64,000 nucleotides of DNA from contig JAGWHU010000003.1 of NCBI GenBank assembly GCA_028866575.1, positions 1 to 64,000 on the forward strand, written 5' to 3'. Both the position numbers and the translations under genes were made by a program. How positions within the stretch are numbered: the first letter of the stretch is position 1; every line of letters starts with the position of its first letter. Origin of the DNA: Candidatus Micrarchaeota archaeon (GTDB taxonomy: Archaea; Micrarchaeota; Micrarchaeia; Micrarchaeales; Micrarchaeaceae). Below the pieces are notes generated by a model, which was given only the letters and a program-made list of their open reading frames with translations, had not been told where the DNA came from and ran no database searches. This document shows, piece after piece, positions 12,222 to 14,831 of the stretch.

Positions 12222-12872
12222 ATGTTCCTTTTGGGCATAGTTGGATTCCTAAGCTCGCTTATATTCAATTCGTACGGCGCGATAAACGCATTCATAAAGG
12301 TATACGGCTACGTCGCAATATTCGTGCTCATGGCGCTTGAGAGCTCTACCATACCAGTTCCTAGCGAGGTCGTGCTTCCGCTTGCGGGGGCATTCGCAGC
12401 AAACGGCACCCTTAATTTCTACATGGCGCTTCTTGCCAGCGTATTGGGCAGCATTGTGGGAACAATGGTGGACTACGCGATCGGATACGTAATAGGCAAG
12501 GACATAGTGTACAAGCACCTGAAGCTGTTCCACGTGAAAAAGGAAACGCTTGATAGCTTTGATTCGTGGTTCGAGAAGAACGGCGTTGCTGCGGTATTCC
12601 TGACAAGGCTTGTCCCTGTAGTCAGGACCGTAATAAACTTCCCTGCAGGTTTCGCGAGGATGAACCTCAAGGAGTTCCTCGCATACACTGTCGCAGGGAT
12701 AGTTGTCTGGGACGTGGTATTGATGGCGTTCGGCTATTACGTGCTGTCCGTGCACAACGCGACAATAATACTGGCAGGAATCGGCGTATTCGCTATACTG
12801 CTTTACATAATATACAGGTACACTATGGGCAAGATGAAAAAGCATACAGGGGATAAGGTCAGTCCTTCCTGA
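12222..12872 (+). CDS. DedA/VTT-domain membrane protein
   Basis: This 216-residue protein has about five hydrophobic segments, including re-entrant ones. It contains the DedA signatures: ESSTIPVPSEVVLPLAG with the acidic residue and prolines in the first re-entrant loop, and FLTRLVPVVRTVINFPAGFARM with the essential arginines. DedA proteins include flippases that return polyprenyl phosphate carriers across the membrane. In this glycan-rich organism recycling of dolichyl phosphate is a reasonable guess. Its 3' end overlaps the convergent neighbour by 14 bp. Confidence 0.88.
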   Translation: MFLLGIVGFLSSLIFNSYGAINAFIKVYGYVAIFVLMALESSTIPVPSEVVLPLAGAFAANGTLNFYMALLASVLGSIVGTMVDYAIGYVIGKDIVYKHLKLFHVKKETLDSFDSWFEKNGVAAVFLTRLVPVVRTVINFPAGFARMNLKEFLAYTVAGIVVWDVVLMAFGYYVLSVHNATIILAGIGVFAILLYIIYRYTMGKMKKHTGDKVSPS

Positions 12873-13686
12873 GCATCGGACCATTGATCTCTTTCCGCTT
12901 CATTTTTTCTAGCAAGCCCACAAGGTCGTCCTTTGTTATCCCCAGTTTCGGCACAGAGCTTGAGGCGCTTCCAACGCTTCCCGCATTTATGAAATACTCC
13001 ACTATGTCCAGGGATATCCTCTTCCTGTCGTCCTCTTCGGGCCCGAATGTCTGCAATGTGAATGCCACGATGTTCATCTTGGACTCGTGGTTTATGTGCG
13101 TGTTCCTTGCAAGAGCCATGAGCCCGGTAGACAGCGCATCTGTGCCTTCCCTGCCGGTGCGCGGCATGCCGAACTTGTCGAATGCAAGCGCTGCGGTTTC
13201 CGCATCCTTGGTCCTTCCGTTGCCTATAAGGTGCGCAGCCCCGTTGACTACGCGTACCTTCACCTTGCTTCCATCGGCGTAGCCCGCTACTATGTACGCC
13301 TCCTTGACGTATCCTGACTTCACCAAATTCTCAACGCTGTCAAGTGCCACGTCCTCTATATCCCTGCCAGAGGTTTTTGATATCTTCCTAAGCTCCTCTG
13401 CCTCTTTGAGCTTGCGTGCGCTGAACAGCATACCGATCGCGACTTTCTGCATGTTTCTCGTTTTGTCATCGTCGAGTTCCAGTTCGGTGCGTATATTGCC
13501 TATCAGGGAGTTTATCCTCTCGGCACTCAACCTTGTGCAAACCTTTTTCAGGGTTTCCAGTTTTTTCTTGTAGCTTTCGCTCTCCTGCGATTCCTTCACC
13601 TTGCCGTAGCCGTAGCTGACTATCGTGTCAAACGCCTCCCTTGCGCTCAGCAGCTTGTCCTTTTTCCTGCTATTTTCCTTATCCAT
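12859..13686 (-). CDS. Helical protein of unknown function
   Basis: This 275-residue soluble protein is mostly helical, with a charged N-terminus (MDKENSRKKDKLLSAREAF) and repeated helix pairs such as VENLVKSGYVKEAYIVAGYA and AETAALAFDKFGM. These look like degenerate TPR or HEAT-type repeats. I do not recognise a family. A minus-strand TATA-like AAAATATATTTT precedes the ATG. It overlaps the convergent DedA gene by 14 bp. A scaffold role would fit the repeats but is a guess. Confidence 0.55.
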   Translation of the reverse strand: MDKENSRKKDKLLSAREAFDTIVSYGYGKVKESQESESYKKKLETLKKVCTRLSAERINSLIGNIRTELELDDDKTRNMQKVAIGMLFSARKLKEAEELRKISKTSGRDIEDVALDSVENLVKSGYVKEAYIVAGYADGSKVKVRVVNGAAHLIGNGRTKDAETAALAFDKFGMPRTGREGTDALSTGLMALARNTHINHESKMNIVAFTLQTFGPEEDDRKRISLDIVEYFINAGSVGSASSSVPKLGITKDDLVGLLEKMKRKEINGPMLRKD

Positions 13687-13844
13687 CTTTTATCACTAGG
13701 TGGCACTGTTGCATTAAAATATATTTTATGCATCCAAGGAGATATTTATAGTTTCGTTTGCAGGCGTTGCAAAAAATGCGCCGTTTTATTCCTATAAAGG
13801 GTTCGCGGGTTGCCTTTCTCCGGGCAAGGCACGAAAAGTATAGG

Positions 13845-13857
13845 TATTTATAAAAAT
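13845..13857 (+). promoter_or_regulatory. TATA box upstream of the C/D box sRNA
   Basis: TATTTATAAAAAT has its centre about 26 bp before position 13876, exactly where the guide RNA's box C begins. It may drive both the sRNA and the nuclease-AlaRS operon that follows. Confidence 0.45.
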
Positions 13858-13873
13858 GCTGTGCCAATAGCTA

Positions 13874-13935
13874 TAAGTGATGATTGAGGTAATCGCTGAG
13901 CTATTAGCTATGAAGACAAGTAGGCGGGCTGATAT
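13874..13935 (+). ncRNA. Candidate C/D box guide sRNA
   Basis: The order and spacing match an archaeal C/D box methylation guide: box C GTGATGA (13877-13883), a 12-base guide, box D' CTGA (13896-13899), a 10-base linker, box C' ATGAAGA (13910-13916, one mismatch to RTGATGA), a 12-base guide, box D CTGA (13929-13932). Both guide spacers are exactly 12 bases, the archaeal norm. A TATA box is correctly placed upstream. The guides would pair with CGATTACCTCAA and CCCGCCTACTTG; I cannot name the target sites. The terminal stem is weak. It lies in the 278-bp gap before the nuclease gene and may be processed from that message. Confidence 0.55.
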
Positions 13936-13964
13936 CTTCCTGCAAGTATTGCGCGGGGTGTGAC

Positions 13965-14831
13965 ATGAGCGTATTGAGTGAGCTGCACAAGACAAACATA
14001 AGGGTATCCGACATCGCCTCCCAATACTGGTGCGAGCGCCAGATGGAATACAACTACAGGTACGGGCAGAAGATAACCAGCGAGATAAAGGAGGGCAAGA
14101 CCATACACGAGGAGCTCGAGAATGAGGTCAACGTGCCCATAATACTGCAGCCCAAGAGCTATGCGGATGCCCTTTACAAGAGGGTATACACAAGCCTCGT
14201 GGCAATCAGGGCGCTGAAGGACAACAAGAAGACCAGGGAGATACAGCTCTACGGCTCCATAGGCGGCTATACGATAGTCGGGAAGATGGACCAGCTGGAG
14301 CTCAAGGACGGGAAGGTCGCCATATCCGAGGACAAGACCAGGGCCAACGGGAACGTACCCTCTGACGCGCAGCAATTGATTCACAGGATACAGCTCATGG
14401 TTTACAGGAAGCTGCTCGGGGACCTGACGGAGGGGCATTACGGATACAGCAACTTCGAGGTGGCGTACCACGTAAGGGCATTGAAGCTCACCGACGAGTT
14501 CAAGAGGCAGCTGGAGGCAATAAACGTGGACAGGTCACTGCAGGAAATACAGCCCATGTCCGTTGAGTTCTTCAATTCCATAAGGTCCATAGGCGCCATA
14601 AGCGACACCCTGTACGTGCGCTACATAAACCAGTTCACCGGCAAGAGCATAAAGTCCCAGTCCTTCGAATACAAGGAGGGGGAGATGGACGGCATAATAA
14701 GGTACATACTTAAATACTGGAACGGAGAAAGGGAATCGATGCCTGTTCCTGAGAACGAAAAATGGAAATGCAGGTTCTGCATGTTCTTCGGAAAGGAGTG
14801 CAAGGTATGGTGGGATCAGAAGGCGTTGTGA
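13965..14831 (+). CDS. Cas4/EXO5-like PD-(D/E)XK nuclease with Fe-S cysteines
   Basis: This 288-residue protein has the layout of the Cas4/Exonuclease V group. One cysteine is near the N-terminus (Cys23 in YWCERQMEY), then His48, Asp109 in GKMDQLEL, a Glu122-x-Lys124 motif, the helix motif QLMVYRKLL with Gln143, and three C-terminal cysteines (Cys269, Cys272, Cys279). The four Cys would bind a 4Fe-4S cluster. Family members are single-strand exonucleases in DNA repair or CRISPR adaptation. No cas gene or repeat array is in the window, so a repair role is more likely. Its TGA overlaps the ATG of alaS by one base, which couples the two. Confidence 0.75.
   Translation: MSVLSELHKTNIRVSDIASQYWCERQMEYNYRYGQKITSEIKEGKTIHEELENEVNVPIILQPKSYADALYKRVYTSLVAIRALKDNKKTREIQLYGSIGGYTIVGKMDQLELKDGKVAISEDKTRANGNVPSDAQQLIHRIQLMVYRKLLGDLTEGHYGYSNFEVAYHVRALKLTDEFKRQLEAINVDRSLQEIQPMSVEFFNSIRSIGAISDTLYVRYINQFTGKSIKSQSFEYKEGEMDGIIRYILKYWNGERESMPVPENEKWKCRFCMFFGKECKVWWDQKAL

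Follow-up and report, generated by a model that had tools for sequence, protein, structure and literature searches.

A C/D box sRNA of Micrarchaeota ahead of the Exo5 and AlaRS genes, with predicted targets in helix 44 and the 3' tail of 16S rRNA

The sRNA gene and its neighbours

The window analysed here is a stretch of 64,000 nucleotides from a Candidatus Micrarchaeota archaeon (contig JAGWHU010000003.1, positions 1 to 64,000). An intergenic gap of 278 bp (13687-13964) contains an sRNA of the C/D box type and is otherwise gene-free, as the preliminary description of this DNA had stated. The gap is followed by an Exo5-type nuclease gene and then by the AlaRS gene, which bears out the Cas4/EXO5-like nuclease and AlaRS named in that description. 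On its other side lies a 275-aa reading frame (12859-13686, reverse strand; start codon at 13686), which is divergent from the sRNA promoter and has no Pfam match. The features of the locus are the following.

13847-13854, forward strand: TATA-like element TTTATAAA, starting 30 bases before box C
13877-13932, forward strand: C/D box sRNA body from box C to box D, recognised by its boxes, conservation and rarity; new, without previous annotation
13877-13883, forward strand: box C, GTGATGA, of which TGATGA is invariant among 26 aligned sequences
13884-13895, forward strand: D' guide TTGAGGTAATCG, 12 nt, pairing with the 16S 3' tail GATCACCTCGA
13896-13899, forward strand: box D', CTGA, from the box pattern and the alignment
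13900-13909, forward strand: D'-C' spacer GCTATTAGCT, a 3-bp hairpin closing the inner k-turn
13910-13916, forward strand: box C', ATGAAGA, with one departure from RTGATGA
13917-13928, forward strand: D guide CAAGTAGGCGGG, 12 nt, pairing with 16S helix 44 CCGCCUGC
13929-13932, forward strand: box D, CTGA, from the box pattern and the alignment
13965-14831, forward strand: Exo5-type PD-(D/E)XK nuclease gene (PF09810, 2.3e-45), start codon 32 bases past box D

Boxes C, D', C' and D thus occur in the order proposed earlier and enclose two guides of 12 nt each, and the TATA box claimed ahead of box C is present. The mature RNA likely spans about 13873-13935. The whole 1,127,809-base genome has a single occurrence of the strict box pattern and none of the reversed control pattern, and one match came up among 3782 simulated 64-kb windows with matched dinucleotide content (about 0.0003 per 64 kb). 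An Rfam search of the element returned no match at gathering score and no member family at permissive thresholds either; the best sub-threshold C/D family was sR2 (RF01139), at 23.1 bits against a gathering score of 42, so the element does not belong to sR2. As had been foreseen, the RNA was missed by gene callers.

A hairpin formed by end pairing is possible in 46 of 47 distinct D'-C' spacers (42 of the form GC..GC and four GG..CC, some with 4-5 pairs), suggesting that the inner motif is a capped k-turn and not the usual k-loop. The pair beside boxes C and D that would begin a terminal stem forms in just 58% of sequences, and we claim nothing from the stem.

Conservation and genomic context in Micrarchaeota

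The nearest relatives of this Exo5 sit in MAGs labelled Micrarchaeota and, in a few records, Marsarchaeota. The same RNA is found at 29 of the 32 relatives' Exo5 loci that were read, directly before the gene at 28 and about 680 bases upstream at one (L030); it is absent at the Exo5 locus in L017, L024 and L034. Boxes and guide cores hardly vary in the alignment. A covariance model derived from 26 sequences (cut-off E <= 0.001) matched 218 of the 301 genomes of the phylum that were searched and 72 of the 96 of good quality, with strong scores in the two families of the window's order and weaker ones in other families of the class. The sRNA is conserved through most of the phylum, unusually well for an RNA of its class, and every sequence test that was run supports the earlier identification of a C/D box guide RNA. 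One genome, G189, holds two diverged copies (L174 and L175), and at position 9 the 16S of this genome is matched by L175 alone. Since the second copy resembles a sequence of family f1 and misfits the 16S, this bin is probably mixed.

Most relatives' loci have a TATA-like element 27-32 bases ahead of box C. Where the RNA stands at Exo5, its D box usually ends 2-36 bases ahead of the start codon, 2-14 in many and often 4 or 5. These distances from TATA to start codon indicate that in many species the sRNA fills the leader of the Exo5 mRNA. Given the shared promoter, mRNA and sRNA would come from one transcript, with transcription and processing predicted from the sequence. Among archaeal C/D genes, 5' overlaps with an open reading frame are rare and lower the expression of the downstream gene (review, PMC7994747).

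The association with Exo5 is confined to part of this range. At 13 loci read elsewhere in the class, the sRNA is well formed and there is no Exo5 within 1.5 kb; within the order, the distance between the two reaches 435-1355 bases (L158, L148, L175, L030). The occurrence of the sRNA without Exo5 suggests that it acts in trans, as an independent gene that became fixed ahead of Exo5 in one order. The preliminary description had placed the sRNA upstream of the nuclease. It does lie there, with its own promoter before it and the nuclease gene after it, but it is not tied to the nuclease, because class-level relatives carry it elsewhere.

Predicted targets in 16S rRNA and guide-target covariation

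The rRNAs of the window's genome and of its relatives were collected by Rfam search, oriented and placed in an alignment with the rRNA of E. coli (L108). Guides were scored genome by genome, each against the rRNA of the same genome, and the scores were averaged over genomes for each alignment column; the 23S of the window's genome was scanned up to about Ec 1940, where its contig ends, and that of relatives in full. Among all 16S and 23S columns, the best for the D' guide places its position 5 on Ec 1533 in the 16S tail, with a score of 12.8 (z 8.0) against 9.0 for the next 16S column and 9.6 for the best of 23S. For the D guide the best is Ec 1402 in h44, with 14.2 (z 7.1) against 12.3 for the best of 23S. 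When the 12 guide positions were permuted in step over all genomes, one of 1000 sets reached the D' value anywhere in 16S and 23S, and 26 reached the D value (0.026 for D alone).

These scans point to one target per guide, both near the 3' end of 16S. The best 23S columns (Ec 1939 and 1832) were equalled by 176 and 113 of the 1000 permuted sets, and the best matches in the tRNAs of the window's genome by 44% and 38% of shuffled guides. Thus, where targets in 16S, 23S or tRNA had been anticipated, 16S provided C1402 for D and the tail for D', and neither 23S nor the own-genome tRNAs rose above chance. A 23S candidate site, TCGGTTACCTCTA, was gone once all rRNAs were correctly oriented.

The rRNA and tRNA genes had several features of their own. 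In many Micrarchaeota the 16S gene measures 1.9-2.9 kb and carries intron-like insertions (L067, L068, L069, L070, L071, L072, L184, L185, L193-L200). In two separate genomes (L039, G000:C21:1-4337; L220, G167:C11:1-101) a contig end cuts off the 23S gene at one and the same model position, about 2064 of 2987, and G002 and G004 likewise gave incomplete 23S matches; assemblies may break there at a shared insertion or repeat. Of the tRNA genes of the window's genome, about a dozen have lengths of 100-137 bases (e.g. L095-L097, L099-L101, L103-L105, L107) and therefore probably contain introns.

The D guide of the window's genome pairs with the 5' strand of h44 (CCGCCUGC) through positions 2-9, giving 8 contiguous pairs, one of them G-U, with position 1 unpaired. 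Its position N+5 falls on the C that corresponds to C1402 of E. coli, position 1360 of the organism's own 16S, and a Watson-Crick G-C pair is present at N+5 in 34 of 38 genomes, the window's included. C1402 lies in the P site, and its ribose methylation is common to all three domains: E. coli carries m4Cm there, P. abyssi Cm1376 and yeast Cm1639 (PMC7005279), the yeast mark being made by snR70 (PMC5199042). The strongest argument for function is that the N+5 rule leads independently to a base already known to be ribose-methylated in an archaeon, and we propose that the D guide probably directs 2'-O-methylation of the C1402 equivalent.

Guide and target vary together. Across the 38 genomes with h44, position 7 of the D guide forms A-U1404 in 25 and G-C1404 in 7 and is unpaired in 6, all with C1404; position 8 is mostly G-U; and position 9 forms G-C1406 in 23 and A-U1406 in 11, both states occurring inside family f2. 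GGTGATC facing GATCACC is kept in distant families, with a G-C pair at N+5. When guides were swapped among genomes, the observed pairing was never reached in 5000 trials for either guide, a result that counts as support and not as a probability, because related genomes are non-independent.

In four class-level genomes (G032, G088, G118 and G120) the D guide has A.C at N+5 and D' is intact, which suggests that in these genomes C1402 may lack methylation or receive it by another route. When 16S and 23S were searched for another target with U opposite this A, h44 remained the top 16S match in G120 and G032 and the second-best in G118.

The target of the D' guide, GAUCACCUC, is the anti-Shine-Dalgarno region of 16S. 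In the window's genome, positions 2-4 and 6-12 of this guide are paired with the tail GATCACCTCGA, and position 5 (N+5) is an A.C mismatch. Among the 37 genomes with a tail, N+5 of D' is G-C in 25 and A.C or U.C in 12, again including the window's, with the neighbouring pairs kept; positions 4, 6 and 8 are paired in every genome. Dennis et al. scored guides mismatched at N+5 as non-methylating, and also proposed that dual guides serve as RNA chaperones (PMC4644070). An A.C exactly at N+5 therefore suggests that the D' arm of the window's genome probably pairs without methylating, as a holding or chaperone arm. Methylation had been expected at the fifth base from both D and D'; the D guide retains this prediction through its G-C pair at C1402, but D' is mismatched here, so that one site is expected. 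Among the genomes with both guides readable, D and D' are disarmed together at N+5 in none; about one would be expected by chance, which makes this absence merely a lead.

The tail itself reads GATCACCTCG or GATCACCTCA in the window's order (e.g. the own genome, L001, and L061-L071), the anti-Shine-Dalgarno core minus its last C, and several other families of the class retain GATCACCTCC (e.g. L181-L185). A search of freely accessible papers found no C/D guide against the anti-Shine-Dalgarno and no named archaeal guide for C1402.

Proposed function and relation to known guide RNAs

Taken together, it is very probable, as judged from the sequence comparisons, that this is a dual-guide C/D sRNA which has its own TATA promoter, heads the transcript of Exo5 and AlaRS and acts on 16S in trans, wherein the D guide would methylate C1402 and the D' guide probably holds the tail. 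From the boxes, their spacing, the promoter position, conservation, complementarity, covariation and the presence of fibrillarin and Nop5 genes in the genome, we infer RNP assembly, methylation and bridging of the two 16S segments. In the proposed sequence of events, L7Ae, Nop5 and fibrillarin would bind the sRNA, and the resulting sRNP would most likely bind pre-16S before h44 closes. The D guide on h44 would then direct 2'-O-methylation of C1402 in the P site. The D' arm would hold the 16S tail at the same time, so that during late assembly it would bridge two segments of the 3' minor domain separated by about 122 bases. Such bridging would set the sequence of the final folding steps and might hold the anti-Shine-Dalgarno closed until 3' maturation. 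We suggest tentatively, and with some doubt, that the RNA may be mainly an assembly clamp, tying the P-site strand of h44 to the anti-Shine-Dalgarno tail until late maturation. Lineages would disarm the methylation register of one arm with its pairing kept, and never both where readable: the window's family and parts of its sister family would have lost the register in D', and four other families in D.

Two other explanations concern the D' arm. It is unlikely that this arm actively methylates the tail C (Ec 1533), which would give two marks in the window's genome too: a G-C pair at N+5 within a duplex of 8-9 bp in 25 of 37 genomes speaks for such activity, but the window's genome and 11 others have A.C or U.C there with flanking pairs kept, which is non-methylating by the N+5 rule (PMC4644070), and a tail mark is absent from the P. 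abyssi list (PMC7005279). Less likely still, the arm would imitate a Shine-Dalgarno sequence (GAGGU), block the anti-Shine-Dalgarno of the finished 30S and so regulate translation, not assembly. The core GAGGU/GGUGA does pair with the anti-Shine-Dalgarno in nearly all genomes; the D site, however, would be base-paired in the folded h44 of the mature 30S, judging from known ribosome structure, which fits assembly better.

An explanation in cis would make the element a k-turn in the Exo5 5' UTR that binds L7Ae and regulates translation or decay of the mRNA, its guides being incidental. Across most of the order the element does take up the whole leader from TATA to start codon, and its end is often 2-5 bases from the start; a RIP-seq paper deals with translational regulation by L7Ae in archaea (PMC5539422). 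The obligate linkage to Exo5 expected of such a leader is not found, given the 13 class-level loci lacking a nearby Exo5 and the four wide separations within the order. Moreover, the guides, needless for a k-turn leader, are conserved and covary with 16S. We therefore regard this explanation as very improbable, and a cis side effect of the sRNA on Exo5 expression may nevertheless occur. A chance assembly of boxes that gives rise to no RNA deserves practically no credence: nothing was counted in its favour, and it is refuted by conservation at the relatives' loci and across the phylum and by the rarity of the pattern in genome and simulation.

With the dual-guide sRNA acting on 16S as the preferred reading, the element can be compared with known systems. 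It has RUGAUGA and CUGA boxes near its ends, internal C' and D' boxes and guides within 10-12 nt, as archaeal C/D box sRNAs do; its guides complement rRNA beyond chance, with a Watson-Crick pair at N+5 for D but not for D', which leaves membership intact because one active guide is enough. We accordingly class it by these features as a genuine, new and phylum-wide archaeal C/D box sRNA, not a new kind of RNA. With the archaeal dual-guide sR families (PMC4644070, PMC7994747) it shares boxes, 12-nt guides, N+5 geometry and two nearby rRNA sites; an N+5 mismatch in one guide is occasional there too, e.g. in Sac sR13, and those families likewise overlap or adjoin 5' ends of open reading frames. 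Unlike them, it is kept through most of a phylum, whereas their guides are described as evolving fast, with no site common to all seven species studied; its inner motif is a hairpin-capped k-turn with a spacer of mostly 8-14 nt instead of a k-loop; and its second arm pairs with the anti-Shine-Dalgarno tail. Yeast snR70 (PMC5199042) is the same kind of guide for the same base by 16S alignment (Ec C1402), a comparison by target and not by sequence kinship. The Rfam family sR2 shares the box pattern and part of a guide. For the tail-binding arm, on which the snR70 comparison does not touch, we know of no counterpart.

If true, our proposal assigns a guide RNA to the three-domain ribose methylation of C1402 in the P site, in a DPANN phylum without a guide RNA in the libraries searched. 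Exo5 becomes a gene whose leader is a guide RNA, and making both RNA and mRNA from one transcript needs reconciling. Because this C/D sRNA is kept across many genera, co-evolution of guide and target can be followed. Finally, a guide that pairs with the anti-Shine-Dalgarno, its register disarmed by one base in some lineages, would make the RNA-chaperone role of C/D RNAs directly testable.
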